A DNA stretch of 64,000 nt from contig NZ_CP038033.1 in NCBI RefSeq assembly GCF_004421105.1, positions 2,065,659 through 2,129,658 of the forward strand, read 5' to 3'. The notes beneath the pieces are model-generated. The model was not told the origin of the DNA, ran no database searches, and saw only the letters and a list, made by a program, of their open reading frames with translations. How positions within the stretch are numbered: the first letter of the stretch is position 1; each line of letters opens with the position of its first letter. A program made the translations under genes and the position numbers. Positions 17,830 through 28,954 of the stretch are shown in pieces. This DNA comes from Nitrosococcus wardiae. GTDB lineage: Bacteria; Pseudomonadota; Gammaproteobacteria; Nitrosococcales; Nitrosococcaceae.

Positions 17830-17886
17830 AAAACTGTGTCATTTAGCGTAACGGGTTATTAAAATTACGCTAAATGACACAGTTTT
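17830..17886. repeat. 22-bp perfect inverted repeat after the DUF99 gene
   Basis: Arms at 17830-17851 and 17865-17886 are exact complements over 22 positions, with a 13-base loop. The right arm ends in a short T-run (AGTTTTTG), compatible with a rho-independent terminator for the DUF99 gene. The arm includes ATTTAGCGTAA, close to the half-site of the dyad at 3698-3739. The rest of the 17798-18074 gap shows no gene. Confidence 0.8.
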
Positions 17887-18074: not shown

Positions 18075-18809
18075 TTGATAAAAAAAATAACCTTATTTGT
18101 TCTGCTTTTTGCTGTATACAGCGTTAGTTCCCTGGTGTTTGCCCATACCGTCATTAAGGATCAAGCTAATGAAGGAACCACCCTGTATACAGCTTTTGCC
18201 ATAGGGCATGGGTGCGGCTTTGAAGATAAAGATAGTCTTCCTGTCATTTCTCAGTCGGTGGTTTTCCCCAATGGCCCTAACTCTATTGTCACCCGTCTTG
18301 ATACCGAGGAAGCCATTAATTTAGGGGATGTGCTCATCGGCGGCGCCCATTCAAACGGCCTGATTAACCCCAAGGCGATTCAAGATATAAATGTTTTTAA
18401 TATGATCGAACAATTTAAGGATGAGACCGGCGTAGTAAGAGGTATTCACTATACCGATGGCGAGCTACAGGCCGATCTGGCAGGGGTTATCCCTTTTCGC
18501 GTCTCAGGAGTTACCTTTGTGGAAGAGTCCTGTGCCACCAAGGTAAGGGCCCGTATTGGGATAGCTAACTGGTGCCATGAGAGGGAAGGGGCGCGCCGGG
18601 TGGATGTATGGATAGGGAAATTGACTCCCGTATTTAATGACGAGCGAGTGGTTTCTGTAGGCTTTTGGCCCACTTTGACCATTAACCGGGATTTAGCGGC
18701 TAATCCCTTACCCGAAGACTGCGGCGAGGGTTATGAAGTAGCGGTGGAACCTTCGGCGGAAGAAGTTGATCAATATCTGCCCATGTCGGGGTTTATTTCC
18801 GGGCTCTAG
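18075..18809 (+). CDS. Secreted protein with predicted N-terminal His, YcnI-like (putative copper binding)
   Basis: 244 residues from a TTG start at 18075, supported by a strong ribosome site (GAGGAGG) and the immediate signal peptide MIKKITLFVLLFAVYSVSS. Cleavage after LVFA would leave mature HTVIKDQANEG, that is an N-terminal histidine. The next segment (TTLYTAFAIGHGC) resembles the start of YcnI/DUF1775 proteins, which bind copper through an N-terminal histidine brace. Four Cys (GHGC, EESC, NWCH, EDCG) could form disulfides, fitting the TlpA-like thioredoxin encoded downstream. The C-terminal half has no match I recognise. Copper binding is inference. It heads a run of same-strand envelope genes up to apbE. 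Confidence 0.7.
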   Translation: MIKKITLFVLLFAVYSVSSLVFAHTVIKDQANEGTTLYTAFAIGHGCGFEDKDSLPVISQSVVFPNGPNSIVTRLDTEEAINLGDVLIGGAHSNGLINPKAIQDINVFNMIEQFKDETGVVRGIHYTDGELQADLAGVIPFRVSGVTFVEESCATKVRARIGIANWCHEREGARRVDVWIGKLTPVFNDERVVSVGFWPTLTINRDLAANPLPEDCGEGYEVAVEPSAEEVDQYLPMSGFISGL

Positions 18810-18832
18810 GTAGATTTGTAAAGGGTAAGGTT

Positions 18833-18855
18833 CGCGAGGCGCATAGCGCCTCGCG
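18833..18855. repeat. 10-bp GC-rich hairpin
   Basis: CGCGAGGCGC (18833-18842) and GCGCCTCGCG (18846-18855) form a perfect stem with a 3-base ATA loop, 23 bases after the preceding stop codon. No T-run follows. It may be an intercistronic mRNA-stabilising structure or a weak terminator. Confidence 0.65.
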
Positions 18856-18932
18856 CTCGCTTAACAGTGGGCCATTGGGATGCTTGAGTTAAAATCCTTT
18901 TTCCTAAACTTTTCTGACGTTCGGGGGTTGAG

Positions 18933-19826
18933 ATGCCTGTGGGTAAATTTTTACTATTAATCCCACTCTTTTTTATCCACTCCTTTCTCTTTGCAGGCGA
19001 GACTTTTCATGATCGGAGCCAAAAACTTGAATCCATCTCCAGAAACGATGGTGGTTTGCATTTAGAAGTAGAGCAAGCACCGTTAGAGCAGATATTTAGA
19101 ATCATTGAAAATGAAACCGGCATTCGGTTACATGCTTCTCCCATGCCTCAAAAATGGGTGACGGCAACTTGCGCAGGCGCAACTCTGGAGGTGCTAAAAT
19201 GCGTCCTAGGTAAAGAAGCTAATCTCATTTATCGGTACGCGGACAAGTTATCCACAGATAATCCAACGCCCCGGCTGCAAGATGTGTGGGTGCTGAGTTC
19301 AAATCCAAGTAAGCATCGGTTGCCCCGGGAGACGGATCATCAAATTATTTGCGGCGCTACAGAACATTCTAATAATCCTATTCAGCATGAGCGGCAGTCG
19401 GTGTCTGAGGAAGAGCAAATAGCCCTATCCAGTTTGAAGCAAAATGAAAGGGAAAAGCTTTCAGCGCTTGCCCGATTATCACCCAATCCCACACAGCGGG
19501 AGGAGGCCTTATCTCGCCTTGCGCTTGTAGATGAAGCTGATGATGAGAGCATCAGAAATATTCTGACGGAGGCTTTAGGAGATCGAAACCCAAATGTCAG
19601 GGCGCAGGCTGTGTCCGGGCTCGTTCGGCGTAATGATCCTGAAAAGGACGATGTATTACGAGAAGCCTTGCATGACAGTGATGTGGGGGTGCGGTTGATG
19701 GCGGTTAGCAATGCGGGAGAGGATATGGCTTTACTTGAAGCGGCGCTCCATGATACGGATAAGATAGTGAGAGATTTAGCTAATATGAAGCTTGATCAAA
19801 TTTTGCGGGAAAATCCACGTCAATAG
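18933..19826 (+). CDS. Secreted protein with secretin-like N-terminal domain and HEAT repeats
   Basis: 297 residues with a signal peptide (MPVGKFLLLIPLFFIHSF, cleavage near LFAG). Residues about 40-100 (LHLEVEQAPLEQIFRIIENE, then GIRLHASPMPQKWVTA) look like the short secretin/TonB amino-terminal domain (STN), a periplasmic docking module. Residues about 165-290 are two to three HEAT-like repeats (ILTEALGDRNPNVRAQAVSG, VLREALHDSDVGVRLMAVSN). The middle is low in recognisable motifs. Such proteins usually act as scaffolds. It lies between two predicted secreted N-terminal-His proteins and is probably in one transcription unit with the next gene (27-base gap). Confidence 0.7.
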   Translation: MPVGKFLLLIPLFFIHSFLFAGETFHDRSQKLESISRNDGGLHLEVEQAPLEQIFRIIENETGIRLHASPMPQKWVTATCAGATLEVLKCVLGKEANLIYRYADKLSTDNPTPRLQDVWVLSSNPSKHRLPRETDHQIICGATEHSNNPIQHERQSVSEEEQIALSSLKQNEREKLSALARLSPNPTQREEALSRLALVDEADDESIRNILTEALGDRNPNVRAQAVSGLVRRNDPEKDDVLREALHDSDVGVRLMAVSNAGEDMALLEAALHDTDKIVRDLANMKLDQILRENPRQ

Positions 19827-19853
19827 GCGTAGCATGATAAGAGGAGAGAGTTT

Positions 19854-20312
19854 ATGAAAAATGTCAATAGGTTGGCCATCCCCTTTATGATGGCTGCCTT
19901 GGGATATGCTGTGAATGGGGCGGCCCATGATCAAGTCGGTGCCTTGGGCAATGAGGCGAGTGCCACTGATCACTACTTAATTATTTGCTCCACTGAGGCA
20001 GGGGAAGCCTCTGACGTGCTTGAGGTTCGAGTGTTTGATGCCACCGAAGCCCAGGGTGGAGGTAAAATAAGCGCAGTAGTCCAGAGGGAAACAGTGGTTA
20101 GAACCGCTTCAGATCCCTTTAGAGTGGATGAGCATTTCAACCATGACAAGAATTTTGGTCCCCTGACCTCTGTCTCCGGCGGAAACGGAGCTTATAATGT
20201 CATGGTGCATAAACTTAAAGATGGCCCTAAAAGTTATTTACTTGAATACCATTGCAAGACAAATTCTGGCATCCACACGGGTACGTCATTGACGGTTTTA
20301 CAAGATCAGTAA
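19854..20312 (+). CDS. Small secreted protein with predicted N-terminal His
   Basis: 152 residues with a ribosome site (GAGGAGAG) close before the ATG. The signal peptide MKNVNRLAIPFMMAALGYAV ends NGAA; cleavage there would leave mature HDQVGALGNEASATDHY. Three Cys are visible overall (IICS, YHCK and none free in the signal), so one disulfide is possible. Six or more further His are spread through the mature chain, including EHFNHDKNF. The body reads as a beta-rich domain. I recognise no named family; similar short AHDQ-type secreted proteins are, from memory, seen in methane and ammonia oxidisers. A metal-binding role is inference from the terminal His and the neighbours. Confidence 0.65.
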   Translation: MKNVNRLAIPFMMAALGYAVNGAAHDQVGALGNEASATDHYLIICSTEAGEASDVLEVRVFDATEAQGGGKISAVVQRETVVRTASDPFRVDEHFNHDKNFGPLTSVSGGNGAYNVMVHKLKDGPKSYLLEYHCKTNSGIHTGTSLTVLQDQ

Positions 20313-20421
20313 TAATGGTCTGTTGTGCTTATCTATGGTTATTAAAGGATTTCAGTGAGCTTTCTTCCTGAGAGGGAGAGAACTCAGGGGCTATCCTAAA
20401 AATTAGAGTTTTAATAGCGTT

Positions 20422-20937
20422 ATGAATAAACTAAGACCGGCTCTTTTCTGCTTACTACTAGCTACTATTCCGCTGCAAACGCTTGCCATCTCTGAAATAA
20501 AACGGGAGGCACCCAACTGCACTTTAAATACCTTGGGTGCAGCAGAACAGATCACTATTCAGCAATGGCAAGGAAAAGTTATTTATGTGGACTTTTGGGC
20601 TTCTTGGTGCCCCCCCTGTGTAAAATCATTTCCATTCTTAAATAATCTGTACCAACATTTTAGTGACGAGGGACTGCAGGTCTTGGGGGTCAATCTTGAT
20701 GAGAAATTAAGCGATGCCGAAGATTTTCTAGCGAAATTTCCTACCCACTTTGATATTGTCATTGATCCAGATCAAGAGTGTGCTCAATTATTCGATGTCC
20801 AAGCCATGCCTTCTTCTTTTCTGGTTGATCGGAACGGAATGATCCGTTATGTCCACAAGGGATTTAGATCCGGGGATGTTGAAAAACTGCGGGCACAGAT
20901 CCAAAAGCTTTTAAAAGAAGAAGCGGCTAACTCTTAA
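20422..20937 (+). CDS. TlpA/ResA-like thioredoxin-family protein
   Basis: 171 residues with a signal peptide (MNKLRPALFCLLLATIPLQ, cleavage near TLA), so periplasmic. The thioredoxin fold shows VDFWASWCPPCVKSFPFL with the redox-active CPPC pair near residue 59 and the cis-Pro loop AMPSSFLVD near 130. An extra Cys pair member occurs in APNCTLN and DQECAQ. TlpA-like proteins reduce Cys of copper chaperones, CuA centres or cytochromes c. Genes of this type are regularly found beside DUF4266/DUF3570/apbE, as here, where the DUF4266 lipoprotein starts 128 bases further on. Confidence 0.92.
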   Translation: MNKLRPALFCLLLATIPLQTLAISEIKREAPNCTLNTLGAAEQITIQQWQGKVIYVDFWASWCPPCVKSFPFLNNLYQHFSDEGLQVLGVNLDEKLSDAEDFLAKFPTHFDIVIDPDQECAQLFDVQAMPSSFLVDRNGMIRYVHKGFRSGDVEKLRAQIQKLLKEEAANS

Positions 20938-21065
20938 TTTTTAGCATGGTTTATTGTCTGTCTTTCCTGCCCTGTTCGATAATTTTTCTGCATTAATAAC
21001 AACACTTTGCCAAACGCCAAAATTTGTTTCAGTGCGCTTCGGCTTTGAAGAGAAATACAGCAATA

Positions 21066-21311
21066 ATGAGAAGCAAGCGAATAACCAAGACAAAAATAAT
21101 AAAAATAATAAGCACGCTATTATTATTTTTGGCGGTAGGGTTGTCAGGTTGCGCCTCGGTGGCTCCCTGGGAGCGGGGCAACCTGGCTAAGCCCCATATG
21201 GCCCTAGACCCCCATCCCATGCAGAGCGGTTTGCGTGCCCATGGCTACAATAGCCGCGAGGCGGCTGCCGGCAGTGGTTCTGCTGAAGGGGCGGGGTGTG
21301 GCTGCTATTAA
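21066..21311 (+). CDS. DUF4266 lipoprotein
   Basis: 81 residues from the ATG at 21066. A basic N-terminus (MRSKRITKTKIIK) and hydrophobic core end in the lipobox VGLSGC. The mature part is the DUF4266 signature: ASVAPWERGNLAKPHMALDP, then a Gly-rich ending GAGCGCY with two Cys. The MALDPHPM stretch contributes His and Met. This short lipoprotein is nearly always encoded directly before a DUF3570 protein, as here, where the two reading frames overlap by about 14 bases. Its function is unestablished; it may anchor or mature the barrel protein. Confidence 0.88.
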   Translation: MRSKRITKTKIIKIISTLLLFLAVGLSGCASVAPWERGNLAKPHMALDPHPMQSGLRAHGYNSREAAAGSGSAEGAGCGCY

Positions 21312-23856
21312 GCCGAAGCCTCTCGCCAAACCCTCCAAGTGCCGAGCCAGTTCTTCGTTATTGGCACTGACTTCCGCTGCACTGGCTTTACCTGGCTTAA
21401 TGTTGCCACCGGCCCATGCTGCTTTTGAGGGGGGGGAGTTCAATTCCCAATACGGCCGTTACGAGGAGGGCGGCAGCACTCAAAGCCAATTTCGGAATAA
21501 GGACAATGACATTCAGGTGGATAGTCTGGAAACCTCCGGCGAAATTGACCTCACTGACCGCTTGAGATTTCGGGCTAATTTTATTCAGGATACCTGGGTA
21601 GGGGCCACGCCCATCACTACGGCACCAGCCGCTACTGTCCGATTTAATCCCAATGCCCAAACCGGGGCGTCACCTTTCTTTGATCTCAGGGGAGGGGTAG
21701 TTAATTTTGATATCGACACGGGTCAGGGGTTGGCGACCATTCCAAGGACCTTTGAGTCTGTGATCACCGCTGAAACCGTGCATGTGATGGCCGAGGCCTC
21801 GCCGGAAACCCGCAAGCAGGGGGATTTCAATCTAGGCTACGAGTGGGATGAAGCGGCGCTGGACCTGGGCGGTGGTATTTCTCTGGAGGATGACTATGAA
21901 TCTCGCTATTTCAACCTGAGTGGGCGCTGGGATTTCAACCAGAAACTCACTACTTTGACGGGAGGGGTAGGCTACATTAATAGCACCATCAATGCCCTGC
22001 GCTTTCCATTCAGAGCGACGTCGGTTCCCGTCGATCCGGAGGGGGAAGTCAATCCCAATTTTCCCGATTGGTCGGTGAGGGTCGATGACCGGCGGACGGA
22101 TACTTCGGTCAATTTTGGTTTCACCCAGGTTGTAGACAAAAACTCAGTATTCAAGGCAGGCTTTGGTTATACCCATAGTTCAGGTTTTCTCTCAAATGCT
22201 TATAAGGAATCGGTATTTTTCGTTCCCTTAGAAACCCCTGGCATGACGTGGCTTTTTACCCGTTACGATAAACGCCCTGAGGAGCGGGATCAATTTAACT
22301 GGACTGCAGGCTATTCCCGTTACCTTGCTGGATTGGATGCCGCTTTGCACTTCAATTACAGTTTTTTTCACGACAACTGGGGAATTAACGCCCATACTTT
22401 TGATATTTCCTGGGGGCAACCCCTGGGTAGGGGGTGGACCATCACCCCCACAGTCAGATATTACAGCCAAAGTGCTGCGGACTTTTACAATCCCTTTTTT
22501 ATAGTCGATCAGGGGCCGCTTTCAGTAGAAGAGATTTTAGCCAACCAAAGCCAACTGCCTACTCCCGACCATTTTTCTAGTGACCATCGACTGTCCGCTT
22601 TTGGGGCCCTGAGTGGTGGAGTAACATTGAGTAAACAATTCGCCAAAGGGGTTACCCTGGAAGCAGGTTTTGAATATTATACCCACGCCGGTTCCTTAAA
22701 GTTGGGGGGAGGGGGGACTGGCGATTTTGCCGATTTCAACTATTTTTTGGCCAATGCGCTGCTGAGGGTGGATCTTTCGGCTCTCAACCATTCTGGCGGT
22801 GGTTACGGGGGGCATGTTCACCCGGTCGGTCATGAGGGGCACAGCGATTTTGCCCCCGCTGGAGTGATGTTCAGCCATATGCTGAGAACACCCGGCGAGT
22901 TTATGGTGGGTTACCGGTATAGCTATAGCCGCCACGGTGGCGACATGCTCCATGGCAGCCAAGCCGTCAATGATCTTGCTATTGTCAATAATGCCTGCAG
23001 GGACACACCCTGCCAGGTGACCTCGGAGCATATGAATATGCATATGCATATGCTTGATCTCATGTATGTGCCAACGGAGTGGTTGAATGTGATGCTGATG
23101 CCCATGTTTATGGATATGGACATGGGCTTGCGGGAGCTTGAGGGGGCCCCCCCTCCGGATCCGGATGCGGTTGGCGGGCACAGCCACGCCATCGAGGGGG
23201 GCGGCCATGCCACTGGTGGAGTGGGTGATACGAGATTGTTTGCGCTAGTTAAATTATTGGATTCTCCCCAGCATTATTTGCACCTGGGCTTAGGCGTCAG
23301 CGCCCCGACCGGTGACGTGGATATTAAAGTCGAGGGTATGGAAATCAACGAGAATAGCCCGGATTTTGGCAAACCCTTATTCCTTCACTATGGAATGCAG
23401 CTTGGCAGCGGTACCTGGGATTTCTTGCCTAGTCTGACCTACACTGGTGGGCTGGATCGCTGGTCTTGGGGCGGTCAGCTGAGCGGTACCGTGCGCTTGG
23501 AAAGCGAAAACTCCTCCGGTTTTGCCTTTGGCGATATATTTCAGGCCACCGCCTGGGGCGGTTATAGCCTGTTCAATTGGTTCTCTGCCTCGGTTCGAGG
23601 CATCTATACGGTACAAGGTGCAATTGAAGGTCAATTCGACGGACCCACTCCGAGTTCGGCGCCGGTAGATTTCCCGGATAATTACGGCGGGCGCTTCTGG
23701 GATGTGGGTTTTGGCCTCAATGCCTCTACTCTAGGAGGTGGGCTTAAGGGAAATCGATTGAGCTTCGAGTGGATACAGCCGATAAGGGATGATGTCAACG
23801 GCTTTCAACTGGAACGGGAGGGTACGCTGTTTGTCACTTGGGGTTTGGCGTTCTAA
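21298..23856 (+). CDS. DUF3570 protein fused to a second Met/His-rich outer-membrane barrel
   Basis: 852 residues if the GTG at 21298 is used; it follows a purine-rich stretch and yields AAIKPKPLAKPSK, then a signal-type segment ending PPAHA. Longer frames to 21235 would overlap the lipoprotein gene more. Residues about 45-490 are DUF3570, a predicted beta-barrel (many Tyr/Trp strands such as FRANFIQDTWVGATPITT). Residues about 500-852 look like a separate MetA-pathway-type transporter barrel. The joining part is dense in possible metal ligands: HVHPVGHEGH near 505, SEHMNMHMHML near 577, LMPMFMDMDMG near 600 and HSHAIEGGGHATGG near 627. The terminal residue is Phe, as in outer-membrane barrels. 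DUF3570 proteins are usually about half this length. Copper or other metal traffic is inference. Confidence 0.82.
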   Translation: MAAIKPKPLAKPSKCRASSSLLALTSAALALPGLMLPPAHAAFEGGEFNSQYGRYEEGGSTQSQFRNKDNDIQVDSLETSGEIDLTDRLRFRANFIQDTWVGATPITTAPAATVRFNPNAQTGASPFFDLRGGVVNFDIDTGQGLATIPRTFESVITAETVHVMAEASPETRKQGDFNLGYEWDEAALDLGGGISLEDDYESRYFNLSGRWDFNQKLTTLTGGVGYINSTINALRFPFRATSVPVDPEGEVNPNFPDWSVRVDDRRTDTSVNFGFTQVVDKNSVFKAGFGYTHSSGFLSNAYKESVFFVPLETPGMTWLFTRYDKRPEERDQFNWTAGYSRYLAGLDAALHFNYSFFHDNWGINAHTFDISWGQPLGRGWTITPTVRYYSQSAADFYNPFFIVDQGPLSVEEILANQSQLPTPDHFSSDHRLSAFGALSGGVTLSKQFAKGVTLEAGFEYYTHAGSLKLGGGGTGDFADFNYFLANALLRVDLSALNHSGGGYGGHVHPVGHEGHSDFAPAGVMFSHMLRTPGEFMVGYRYSYSRHGGDMLHGSQAVNDLAIVNNACRDTPCQVTSEHMNMHMHMLDLMYVPTEWLNVMLMPMFMDMDMGLRELEGAPPPDPDAVGGHSHAIEGGGHATGGVGDTRLFALVKLLDSPQHYLHLGLGVSAPTGDVDIKVEGMEINENSPDFGKPLFLHYGMQLGSGTWDFLPSLTYTGGLDRWSWGGQLSGTVRLESENSSGFAFGDIFQATAWGGYSLFNWFSASVRGIYTVQGAIEGQFDGPTPSSAPVDFPDNYGGRFWDVGFGLNASTLGGGLKGNRLSFEWIQPIRDDVNGFQLEREGTLFVTWGLAF

Positions 23857-23936
23857 TCAACAATGGAGTGAGCAGGGGGGCATTTTCTCTCTGGGATTCG
23901 GACTCCGGTTCTGGCGGCTGATTTTTTGGGGGTAGG

Positions 23937-24905
23937 GTGAAGCTTTACCGCAAGGCTTTTAATGCTATGGGCACGCCCTGTGAGATTCAACTCTATGCCC
24001 AAACTCAGGCCAAAGCCCAACGAGCCGCAGAATTCATCATCGCCGATGTGCGCAGGCTGGAGGCGCTGTATTCCCGTTACCGGGCTGATAGCTTTCTTTC
24101 TGAGATTAATCGGGTGGCGATGGCGGGTGGGCGTATCTCGGTAGATGAAGAAACAGCGGGATTGCTCAATTATGCGGCCACTTGCTATGAGCAAAGCGAA
24201 GGATTATTTGACATTACTTCCGGCATCTTGCGGCGCGCTTGGAACTTTAAGTCAGACAAATTGCCGAGTAAAGCGCAAGTGCAAGAGCTGCTTAGCAGTA
24301 TTGGCTGGGATAAACTATATTGGGCACCGCCGGTATTGGAATTTCCCTTACCCGGAATGGAAATTGACTTTGGCGGCATCGTCAAGGAATATGCCGCTGA
24401 CCGCACTGCCTCACTGAGTTCGCAGGCGGGGGTTCGGCATGGTTTAGTGAATTTAGGTGGTGATATTAAGATTATTGGTCCCCGCCCCGATGGTGAGCCT
24501 TGGCGGATTGGCATCCGTCACCCGAGTCATCAAGGAGCAGCAACGCGAATGCTCCTGTTGCAGGAGGGCGCTATTGCCAGTAGCGGTGATTATGAGCGTT
24601 GCATCGTGTTAAATGGCGTCCGTTACGGCCATGTCCTCAACCCTAAGACGGGTTGGCCAGTGCGGCATTTGGCATCGGTGACCGTGGTCAGTGATTTATG
24701 CGTTGTGGCGGGAAGTGCCTCTACCATTACCATGCTGAAAGAAACTGATGGCCCGGATTGGTTGCAAAATTTGGGTTTACCTCATTTCTGGGTGGATATC
24801 CGGGGTAAAACCGGGGGGTCGCTAGAGGAATTGCCCACTAAGACTGCTGCTTCGATTGGGAATGGCAAACAGCAAGCGGCAATCATGGTGCTTGATGAAC
24901 ATTAA
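23937..24905 (+). CDS. apbE: ApbE-family FAD:protein FMN transferase
   Basis: 322 residues starting at GTG 23937 behind a GGGGGTAGG ribosome site. Family signatures: MGTPCEIQLYA at the start, the YSRYRADSFLSEIN block, EGLFDITSG, DFGGIVKEYAADR, the flavin-binding GLVNLGGDIKIIG and the metal-site region IASSGDYERC, then HVLNPKTGWPV. ApbE moves FMN from FAD to a Ser/Thr of a target protein (motif DxxxSGAT-like) using Mg2+. There is no signal peptide or lipobox, unlike many ApbE proteins, so it probably acts in the cytoplasm before export of its target. I found no target motif in the neighbouring proteins. The wzm gene starts 18 bases later. Confidence 0.93.
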   Translation: MKLYRKAFNAMGTPCEIQLYAQTQAKAQRAAEFIIADVRRLEALYSRYRADSFLSEINRVAMAGGRISVDEETAGLLNYAATCYEQSEGLFDITSGILRRAWNFKSDKLPSKAQVQELLSSIGWDKLYWAPPVLEFPLPGMEIDFGGIVKEYAADRTASLSSQAGVRHGLVNLGGDIKIIGPRPDGEPWRIGIRHPSHQGAATRMLLLQEGAIASSGDYERCIVLNGVRYGHVLNPKTGWPVRHLASVTVVSDLCVVAGSASTITMLKETDGPDWLQNLGLPHFWVDIRGKTGGSLEELPTKTAASIGNGKQQAAIMVLDEH

Positions 24906-26992: not shown

Positions 26993-27604
26993 ATGATCAT
27001 TTCTCACAAGTATAAGTTTATTTTTATAAAAAATGGAAAAACCGCAGGAACCAGTATTGAGGTGTTCCTTTCTCAGATTTGTGCTTTCTCTGATATTGTT
27101 ACACCCATTTATCCCCCTGTAGAACTGCACCTTCCCCGTAATTACCAAGGCTTTTATAACCGTATGACAAGTGCGGAGATCCGGGATCGAATAGGCGAAA
27201 AAAATTGGAAAGATTATTTTAAGTTTTGCGTGGAGCGCAATCCCTGGGATAAGACTCTTTCTTATTATTATATGGCTAAATTTAGAGCCAATGGGAATCT
27301 TTCTCTTGATGAATTTCTCGCTGGTCAAGAATTTCCTATCAACTTTCCCCGGTATACAGAACCAGATGATAATTTCAAAATTATTGTTGATAAGATTATT
27401 GATTTTGACAATCTCATGGCTGGCTTAAGGGAAGTGTTTCGGGGGTTAAGAATACCTTTTAATGGCTCGCTTGGAGTTTATGCTAAATCAGAGTACCGAA
27501 CCGATCGGCGGCCTTATCAGGAAGTTTTAACCCCTGCCCAAGCAGAACGGATTAGTAATATTTTCGCGGTTGAAATTGCTTTGCATGGCTATCGCTTTTA
27601 TTAG
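26993..27604 (+). CDS. Sulfotransferase-family protein 1
   Basis: 203 residues. The PAPS phosphosulfate-binding loop is KNGKTAGTSIEVFL near residue 11-24 and the 3'-phosphate site is CVERNPWDKTLSYYY near 80. These two motifs define the Sulfotransfer_2-like carbohydrate sulfotransferases. The catalytic-loop Lys of the usual PKTAGT is conserved here as GKTAGT, with Asn-Gly in place of Pro. It would transfer sulfate from PAPS to the exported glycan. It begins 3 bases after wzt and the next sulfotransferase starts 14 bases after its stop, so the genes are co-transcribed. Confidence 0.85.
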   Translation: MIISHKYKFIFIKNGKTAGTSIEVFLSQICAFSDIVTPIYPPVELHLPRNYQGFYNRMTSAEIRDRIGEKNWKDYFKFCVERNPWDKTLSYYYMAKFRANGNLSLDEFLAGQEFPINFPRYTEPDDNFKIIVDKIIDFDNLMAGLREVFRGLRIPFNGSLGVYAKSEYRTDRRPYQEVLTPAQAERISNIFAVEIALHGYRFY

Positions 27605-27618
27605 GCGAGGCTAAGCCT

Positions 27619-28239
27619 ATGATAGGGATATATCACCAATTTATCTTTGTGCATATTCCAAAAACAGCTGGAAATGCACTGCAAAGTGTTCTAAGCGCCT
27701 ATTCAGAAGATACGCTTGTTGCCGGTAATAACAAGGATGGTGTTCACCGCTTCGGACTATATAGTGCTTACGGTACCATTAAGCATTCAACTTTGACTGA
27801 TTATTTTGCTGCCCTTGGACCGGAATCATTTTGGTCAAAGAGAAAGTTTTCCTGTGTCCGCAATCCCTGGGACCGTGCTATTTCTTTTTATTTTTCACCA
27901 CACCGGAGGTGTGATACCTGGGATCGAAATGAATTTATCCGGATGTTGGATGAAATCCATCCGATGAGCACCTACTTGCGGTTACCCACTGATGCAGCTG
28001 GAATGAGACCCGATGATAATCTTGATTTTATTATTCGCTACGAACAATTAAATGAGGATTTCTCTAGATTGTGTGATATTTTAGACATTCCAGGGAGGAG
28101 CCTTCCTGTTCTTAATCAAGGCAACCGGCGGCCTTATTTTGATTATTATGATCCTGAGCTTATTCAAATAGTAACGGACCGCTTTTGGGAAGACATTGAG
28201 GTTTTTGGCTATAAGTTTGATTCCGTAAGAGAAAGCTAG
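27619..28239 (+). CDS. Sulfotransferase-family protein 2
   Basis: 206 residues with the PAPS loop HIPKTAGNALQSVL (residues about 12-25) and the 3'-phosphate motif CVRNPWDRAISFYFSP near 80. The loop has Asn where the commoner form is PKTAGTS. The end pattern (FWEDIEVFGYKF) is shared with protein 1 (FAVEIALHGYRFY), so the two are probably old duplicates, although the middles differ a good deal. Expected activity is sulfation of a sugar hydroxyl. It is packed between two other sulfotransferase genes. Confidence 0.85.
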   Translation: MIGIYHQFIFVHIPKTAGNALQSVLSAYSEDTLVAGNNKDGVHRFGLYSAYGTIKHSTLTDYFAALGPESFWSKRKFSCVRNPWDRAISFYFSPHRRCDTWDRNEFIRMLDEIHPMSTYLRLPTDAAGMRPDDNLDFIIRYEQLNEDFSRLCDILDIPGRSLPVLNQGNRRPYFDYYDPELIQIVTDRFWEDIEVFGYKFDSVRES

Positions 28240-28240
28240 C

Positions 28241-28954
28241 ATGAGAATCGTATTCGTTCATATCCCTAAAGCGGCAGGGACTTCATTAAAGGAAGCTATT
28301 TTGAAAAAGGTGGGCAACGATAATCTTTATTTTGACTATAATCGTCCCCTTGCGAAGGCTGATCTGCAGCGCAAAGCCTATTGTCTGTTTTCAAGTATTG
28401 CTGCTAGACCAAGGGAGGAAGCCGTTATCTTTGGTCATTTTCTTGCTGGAAAATATGCCAAATTTAATGGTTATTATTTTAAGCCTCGCAAGGAAATCGC
28501 TTACGGAGTTTTTCTTCGTGATCCTTTACAAAGGGCAATATCCCACTTTTTTTTCTGGAAAAGGACAACTGTTGATGGGCACCGAGTTTGGGAGCGTTTT
28601 TCCCGGGAAAGCTGGAGTTTAGAAAGGTTTCTATTATCCGAGGAGCATACTAATTTTCAAGCTAAATTTCTTTGGCGTTTTCCCTTGAGGCAATTTGATT
28701 TTATTGGTTTAACTGAACATTTCAATGACAGCGTAAAAATGCTAGGCTGTGTTTTTCCGATACTAAAAGATTTACCAATTAGAACTGATAACAGCAACCC
28801 TCAGAATGCCGTTGGTGAAAACTATAAAATTGATCCCTGTTTGGCGTCCGAATTTATGCAGCGCAATAAGCTGGATTATGCTTTATATGGCCAAGCAGAA
28901 AAAATTTTTTCTGAGCAAAAGTACAGATTCCTGAAGTCAGGGATATGGCGATAA
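28241..28954 (+). CDS. Sulfotransferase-family protein 3
   Basis: 237 residues with HIPKAAGTSLKEAIL (PAPS loop, residues about 6-20) and FLRDPLQRAISHFFFW near residue 90 (3'-phosphate site). An intervening FGHFLAGKY segment matches the GHxxxG region of 2-O-type carbohydrate sulfotransferases. It belongs to the same broad superfamily as proteins 1 and 2 but is more divergent, so it probably sulfates a different position or sugar. It starts one base after the preceding stop and its own end overlaps the start of the 1046-residue gene by 10 bases. Confidence 0.85.
   Translation: MRIVFVHIPKAAGTSLKEAILKKVGNDNLYFDYNRPLAKADLQRKAYCLFSSIAARPREEAVIFGHFLAGKYAKFNGYYFKPRKEIAYGVFLRDPLQRAISHFFFWKRTTVDGHRVWERFSRESWSLERFLLSEEHTNFQAKFLWRFPLRQFDFIGLTEHFNDSVKMLGCVFPILKDLPIRTDNSNPQNAVGENYKIDPCLASEFMQRNKLDYALYGQAEKIFSEQKYRFLKSGIWR

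Follow-up and report, generated by a model that had tools for sequence, protein, structure and literature searches.

A fused DUF3570 and Met/His-rich barrel protein in a conserved seven-gene block of Nitrosococcus wardiae, a candidate envelope copper-redox system of ammonia and methane oxidisers

In Nitrosococcus wardiae seven consecutive genes encode a DUF3570 protein fused to a methionine- and histidine-rich second barrel, together with a thioredoxin, a DUF4266 protein, an ApbE flavin transferase, a HEAT-repeat protein and two secreted families, most members of which mature with an N-terminal histidine. The whole block, or parts of it, also occurs in Methylococcales and Nitrosomonas loci. 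Judging from the sequences, we give an even chance to the block being an envelope copper-redox system that serves AMO/pMMO, perhaps by flavin-driven reduction of Cu(II) and passage of Cu(I). Copper as the substrate is suggested by the distribution, the residues and a predicted fold. To our knowledge, the copper route across the outer membrane in ammonia oxidisers, and in methanotrophs without methanobactin, is still open. A block common to gammaproteobacterial methanotrophs, the family of N. wardiae and Nitrosomonas is a testable candidate for copper acquisition in organisms that control methane and nitrification fluxes, and it offers a possible substrate for uncharacterised DUF3570 systems.

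The window, a stretch of 64,000 nucleotides, belongs to a genome assembled as a single contig of 4.02 Mb, in which AMO/PmoA is present. The list of open reading frames confirms seven consecutive plus-strand ORFs at 18075-24905, here called P1 to P7, Table 1. Six exported proteins had been predicted, and by eye export signals are indeed seen in P1-P6 and none in ApbE. In the window's family, represented by six genomes from three genera, all seven genes are found in identical order in every genome (6/6, the window's own counted), with P1 doubled in one genome and P3 in two. The flanks differ: among the five other regions a single one was seen to have the Endo_dU gene upstream, and in four extra DNA separates ApbE from the downstream ABC gene. 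Because the block is complete in all six genomes despite these differing flanks, it is more than a chance neighbourhood, and chance assembly was ruled out. Promoter and terminator scans gave results at chance level. Between the Endo_dU gene and P1 lies a perfect 20-bp inverted repeat (17832-17884, arms 17832-17851 and 17865-17884) followed by a T run, possibly a terminator or a regulatory hairpin, with no second copy within the window.

Table 1. Features of the seven-gene block, with positions in the window and residues numbered within each protein.
Feature	Position	Strand	Basis
P1, secreted YcnI-fold protein; mature N-terminal His24, conserved His45-Gly-Cys47, Trp179	18075..18809	+	ORF, alignment, model
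P2, secreted HEAT-repeat protein (STN-like N-terminal part by eye)	18933..19826	+	Pfam HEAT_2 E 5.8e-11
P3, small secreted beta-sandwich; mature N-terminal His25, conserved Cys45, His133-Cys134, His141	19854..20312	+	Alignment, model
P4, TlpA/ResA-like thioredoxin, CPPC	20422..20937	+	Pfam Redoxin E 4.7e-26; Redoxin/AhpC-TSA (ResA/DsbE-like)
P5, DUF4266 small exported protein, probable lipoprotein, C-terminal CXC (codons 21297-21305)	21066..21311	+	Pfam DUF4266 E 2.7e-20
P6, DUF3570 + Met/His-rich second barrel domain	21298..23856	+	852 aa from GTG; Pfam DUF3570 E 3.9e-132
First presumed FMN acceptor of P6, Thr104 (VGAT here)	21607..21609	+	Motif from PMC8238504
Second presumed FMN acceptor of P6, Ser125 (TGAS)	21670..21672	+	Motif from PMC8238504
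C-terminal Met/His barrel domain of P6	22846..23853	+	Barrel profile match
Met-rich stretch of P6, Met579-Met609, alternating Met, two neighbouring segments	23032..23124	+	78-fusion alignment
P7, ApbE FAD:protein FMN transferase, no export signal by eye	23937..24905	+	Pfam ApbE E 1.2e-74

The start of P6 overlaps the end of P5. Its DUF3570 domain scores 441.5 bits against a Pfam cut-off of 25 and covers residues 43-504 of the 873-residue mechanical ORF, while the C-terminal ~350 residues are without a Pfam match. A stand-alone relative of this C-terminal part matches Pfam Phenol_MetA_deg, and from family and annotation P6 is probably a barrel protein. The fusion is genuine, since 78 full-length fusions from 70 loci (the window's included) hold both parts in one frame. 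Mean column identity of P6 is 77% within the family and 61% when the genomes G234 and G309 are added. We rejected the reading of P6 as an ordinary stand-alone DUF3570 protein, as the fusion frame is present in just 3 of the 71 DUF3570-positive genomes of our class sample, 274 Gammaproteobacteria genomes.

Both presumed FMN acceptors are kept in 77 of the 78 fusions, as Thr/Ser at site 1 and Ser/Thr at site 2. ApbE has been shown experimentally to flavinylate another DUF3570 (Meheust 2021, PMC8238504). Together these points support the flavinylation partner predicted for ApbE. The first motif position of site 1 is Ser in 67, Gly in 5, Val in 4 (the residue of the window) and Ala in 1 of the 78 fusions, and that of site 2 is Ser/Thr in only 44.

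A Met/His ligand patch had also been proposed on the barrel, and nine such positions are invariant in all 78 fusions (His527, Met536, Met581, Met583, Met585, Met589, Met601, Met609, Met700). Met579 (74/78), Met599 (77/78) and Met607 (76/78) are less strict. The methionines of 579-585 and 599-609, spaced two apart, would face one side of beta strands. Among 40 stand-alone barrels, 11 of 13 Met/His-type positions are kept in 28-38, and Met605 and Met607 in 7. As the Met pattern is mostly common to these proteins, it belongs to the barrel family and not to the fusion, and since it is largely present in stand-alone barrels of genomes without AMO, the Met positions prove no link to AMO. At four loci (L147, L135, L128, L131) there are two or more fused DUF3570-barrel genes. 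On a Methylosinus plasmid (L019 6396-8612, beside feoB) the Met-barrel is joined to another N-terminal stretch in a protein annotated as an outer membrane beta-barrel protein, which is an independent fusion.

P1 had been called YcnI-like from its letters, a likeness that failed in sequence and stood in fold. P1 has no Pfam match, and DUF1775 matches none of its 25 chosen relatives. The P1 profile aligns weakly with one DUF1775 protein (hhalign 18.7%), yet the N-terminal His and the HGC motif are paired; searches of plasmids and of the PDB with this DUF1775 protein itself found nothing. PDB sequence searches with the P1 and P3 profiles gave weak matches alone, E 0.2 or worse. The structure model of P1 (pLDDT 86.7) aligns best in VIA with YcnI, at Z 12.0 for 7me6 and 8um6 and 11.4 for 7mek (apo and copper-bound), followed by an uncharacterised Nocardia protein at 10.9 and then a drop to 7.5 and below. 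The alignment with 7me6 (rmsd 2.8, 124 aligned) begins at residue 24 of P1 and residue 27 of YcnI. YcnI is absent from Foldseek's own top 50, where generic beta folds are found, and was raised to the top by the VIA re-alignment of the Foldseek candidates.

YcnI binds Cu(II) through the N-terminal His27 and Glu50, with Trp137 close (PMC8424229). P1 resembles the YcnI/DUF1775 copper chaperones described there in its predicted fold, its mature N-terminal His and a conserved Trp, whose positional match to Trp137 is presumed. It differs in having no DUF1775 match, in a His45 near the place of Glu50 (by spacing only) and in further conserved Cys. His45 lies 21 residues past the N-terminal His and Glu50 23 past, and from this spacing we tentatively suggest that His45 may replace Glu50 and complete a histidine brace.

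The P1 alignment has 25 rows, hand-picked from 48 matches plus the window and 24-36% identical to the window's P1. His24 (the mature N-terminus), His45, Cys47, Pro65, Cys153, Cys167, Trp179, Cys216 and Pro226 are invariant. In the 27 rows for P3, hand-picked from 86 matches plus the window, the invariant residues are Met1, Ala24, His25 (the mature N-terminus), Cys45, His133, Cys134 and His141. The invariance of the N-terminal His is partly by choice in both alignments, because rows without a clear N-terminal His were left out. By pattern, an N-terminal His is present in 47 of 48 P1 relatives, a count that caught another His in at least six rows (L120, the short ORF of L134, L143, the first copy of L145, L148, L167), and in 74 of 86 P3 homologues, again with another His caught in several rows. 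Of the 12 P3 rows with none, several are second tandem copies, a His-less subgroup.

P3 has no Pfam match, and Pfam PPC is not among the families matched by its 27 members. A scan of an 84,980-species collection with the single protein found nothing, whereas the profile search did detect P3. In its model (pLDDT 80.3) P3 forms a sandwich of nine strands, which scores Z 7.7-10.6 against several sandwich folds, including subtilisin and collagenase C-domains and calpain domains, none decisive as a relative. In Methylotuvimicrobium buryatense P3 and P1 are naturally fused in one frame (L032 7696-8802, the same as L136 5143-6249), on the strand opposite to the remaining genes, and this fusion is a direct link between both families. 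Near P3 in G234, L030 7802-8287 encodes a Cys/His-rich protein with a TAT-like signal, by eye similar to copper-storage proteins. A weak P1 relative is found in an AMO-positive genome (L103 7746-8504, 10184-11215), one gene from a di-haem peroxidase (CCP_MauG), an arrangement that recalls CorA/CorB.

The original prediction described P2 as a HEAT/STN protein. Pfam confirms the HEAT part and gives no match for STN; the gene is in place in all six family genomes. The CxxC of P4 is kept in 62 of 63 relatives. For P5 we placed the start at the ATG of position 21066 in preference to the mechanical TTG of 21024, and the lipobox LSGC was recognised by eye. Of 74 DUF4266 relatives, 73 have the CXC and 42 match a lipobox pattern. 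For P7, 44 of 52 ApbE relatives with at least 250 residues have fewer than 20 residues ahead of the MG[TS] motif. ApbE also accompanies stand-alone DUF3570 at 20 of 27 loci, with no clear export signal there either (starts not fixed). An ApbE without a signal contrasts with its presumed exported substrate, and FMN attachment before export would be unusual.

In 64 loci with a full-length fusion we counted a gene as present when it lay on the same strand and on the expected side, where the flank sufficed. The fused P6 is accompanied by P5 in 59/62, P4 in 49/60, P3 in 45/55, P7 in 36/57, P2 in 29/51 and P1 in 28/49 loci. By these counts the block is steadiest across P3-P4-P5-P6, and P1, P2 and P7 are frequently missing or lie at another place. 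A quick tree of P6, with a rooting of our choice, joins the window's family with Methylotetracoccus (support 0.999) and groups Nitrosomonas with methanotroph sequences (0.92 with L148, weaker above at 0.74 and 0.52). These groupings suggest a transfer of P6 between methane and ammonia oxidisers.

In the class sample of 274 genomes DUF3570 is present in 71, the Met-barrel profile in 51 and AMO/PmoA in 9. P1 is found in five, P3 in three and the fusion in the same three, all AMO-positive, where two of the P1 matches (G089, G197) are weak and sit outside such a block. Only the window genome, G234 and G309 have DUF3570 and the barrel at one place, and only these three have an 882-920 aa frame with the second barrel. 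The naive chance of the overlap with AMO is 1e-8 for P1 and 2.5e-5 for P3 or the fusion, values that are too small because of kinship (G089 and G234 are of one family); all our counts treat related genomes as independent. Four of the nine AMO-positive genomes (G071, G199, G273, G311) are without P1, P3 and the fusion, and P3 and the fusion are missing in six of the nine, G089 and G197 included. P1 is found in 6 of the 63 genomes of the window's order, every one in the window's family. The block lies ~1.9 Mb from the only amoA match in its genome.

We also scanned the 84,980-species collection with the fused profile. The best 80 of the 93 matches form 75 loci, many of them on draft or metagenome contigs. 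Of these loci, L109-L174 are fusions or fusion pieces and L175-L183 barrel-only. The former are mostly from Methylococcales (Methylobacter, Methylovulum, Methylomonas, Methylotuvimicrobium buryatense, Crenothrix, Methyloglobulus and others) and Nitrosomonas, with few other assemblies. Both N-terminal-His families thus co-occur with DUF4266/DUF3570 far beyond close relatives, which is the outcome that the prediction had made its neighbourhood check. For the loci from these best 80 matches AMO/PmoA was found in 30 of 40 genomes behind fused loci and 0 of 9 behind stand-alone barrels, in a search that covered 50 of the 75 loci. Ten genomes behind fused loci gave no AMO/PmoA match. Four of them are metagenome assemblies that bear the names Nitrosomonas, Methylobacter or Methylococcaceae (L145, L167, L119, L114), and six are of no fitting methanotroph or nitrifier genus (L151, L153, L164, L171, L172, L173). 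The latter six have no P1 or P2 at the locus, and P3 in L153 only. P1 is present in 22 of 31 AMO-positive loci vs three of ten AMO-negative ones (L145, L167, L119).

At wider scale, the P6 profile matches 149 of 201 genomes in the order of G309 (M. buryatense), 126 strongly (best E <1e-190) and 23 weakly, and 63 of 101 genomes in the family of Nitrosomonas sp. Nm84, all with E 4e-275 or better. Counting against a block that serves AMO, DUF3570 systems are common without AMO, as the 71 of 274 genomes carrying DUF3570 indicate. Other traits common to methane and ammonia oxidisers could also explain the distribution. The copper reading is further weakened by the distance from amoA, the AMO-positive genomes that have none of these genes, the fused loci of genomes in which no AMO was found, the P3 homologues with no N-terminal His, the frequent gaps at P1, P2 or P7 and the signal-less ApbE.

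The core of TlpA, DUF4266, DUF3570 and ApbE is already known, with several hundred such clusters counted (PMC8238504). These genes had been taken for a functionally unassigned set, which does not wholly hold, given that DUF3570 is a proven ApbE substrate and clusters with DUF4266, thioredoxin and ApbE were described in 2021 (PMC8238504). The block shares with the clusters of Meheust et al. the four core genes, the DUF4266 CXC and, with a varying first motif position, the two DUF3570 acceptor sites (PMC8238504); here, too, a DUF4266 with a C-terminal CXC, a thioredoxin-like gene and ApbE all stand alongside DUF3570. Unlike the clusters as described there, DUF3570 is here fused to the Met/His barrel and joined by P1, P2 and P3, mostly in methane and ammonia oxidisers. 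By Pfam no DsbD is among the seven block genes (neighbour genes were judged by eye), and 316 published DUF3570-type clusters are without it (PMC8238504). In the literature searched, PMC8238504 alone has the words DUF3570 or DUF4266. The extended form, with the fusion, the HEAT protein and two mostly N-terminal-His families, is in no paper that we found, and the cluster list of PMC8238504 may include these genomes.

Several other systems can be likened to the block. A CuA site is formed by some PmoD proteins, whose genes belong to pmo/amo operons, and by description PmoD/AmoD and the block both track the distribution of pMMO/AMO (PMC6189053). MEALZ_0810/0811 of M. alcaliphilum are induced under copper limitation; no assignment to block genes was reached. 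CorA pairs with a di-haem peroxidase and not with a flavoprotein, a difference from the block. By description, CorA/CorB of methanotrophs are alike in handling copper at the surface (PMC11784148, PMC13274458). The Anglerases Ang-1/Ang-2 are likewise secreted proteins with an N-terminal His, proposed to capture metal for uptake, and unlike the block they work with membrane-bound permeases (PMC12537917). The main text of that paper contains no word starting with methanotroph, Methylo, Nitroso or ammonia (PMC12537917).

For the proposed copper-redox system, P1 and P3 would take up Cu(II) in the envelope at their N-terminal histidines. ApbE would attach both FMNs to the DUF3570 part of P6, and electrons would pass from TlpA (P4) to the CXC protein (P5) and on to the two flavins, which would reduce Cu(II) to Cu(I). 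Cu(I) would then follow the Met-rich stretch in the second barrel in the direction of the periplasm, the site at which AMO/pMMO would be metallated. We infer the order of the electrons, the direction of copper, the placing of P6 in the outer membrane and the role of the HEAT protein. The copper- or flavin-dependent outer-membrane system first predicted thus stands in part: the AMO distribution and the P1 fold support an association with copper and the conserved acceptors one with flavin, while the outer-membrane placing is presumed. In the most specific form, a single P6 chain would be both cuprireductase and channel of the outer membrane: a barrel bearing two flavins, joined to a methionine-lined barrel, would reduce Cu(II) from the N-terminal-His proteins and import Cu(I). 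This form is tentative and we think it somewhat unlikely. If true, P6 would be a dedicated copper supply of pMMO/AMO for methane and ammonia oxidisers without methanobactin.

P6 might instead be a flavin-based outlet that, at low oxygen, disposes of excess electrons through the outer membrane, with minerals or another acceptor receiving them and the copper proteins as redox partners, which we hold to be unlikely. DUF3570 systems have been placed among those for extracytosolic electron transfer (PMC8238504). Methylococcus capsulatus has surface multihaem cytochromes, enriched in copper-poor cells, for which extracellular electron transfer was suggested by the authors (PMC4831470). Five genomes of the genus g142, G197 among them, match the P6 profile only weakly; if g142 is Methylococcus, this would agree with the redundancy of flavins and cytochromes noted in PMC8238504. 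Such an outlet leaves the invariant Met/His positions, the two mostly N-terminal-His families and the YcnI fold unexplained.

A role in copper defence, with P1 and P3 sequestering copper and the barrel passing it out, seems improbable to us. It would agree with a stand-alone Met-barrel on a Ruegeria plasmid, beside DUF2933, a DsbD-domain protein and cytochrome c maturation genes, and with the Cys/His-rich TAT protein that adjoins one locus. Against it, the recurrent neighbours listed include no gene recognisable by eye as copper-efflux or CueR-like, and these organisms have a high copper demand. Least probable is a role in reducing and assimilating iron, which has been proposed for certain other DUF3570 clusters; 25 DUF3570 clusters include VIT1 (PMC8238504). 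A Met-barrel relative adjoins feoB on the Methylosinus plasmid, but by eye none of the recurrent neighbour families listed looked like an iron-uptake gene, the Met-rich sites and the N-terminal-His YcnI fold point to copper, and the linkage to AMO/pMMO also speaks against iron.

A gene for a multi-pass membrane protein (by eye, no Pfam match) is absent at the equivalent place in the window and is found at 33 of 71 loci (L022 10242-11957 and 32 others), lying downstream on the same strand in 13 of the 49 with enough flank. Elsewhere in the window, at 26993-28954, there are three adjoining ORFs that start with sulfotransferase-like motifs, as judged by eye.
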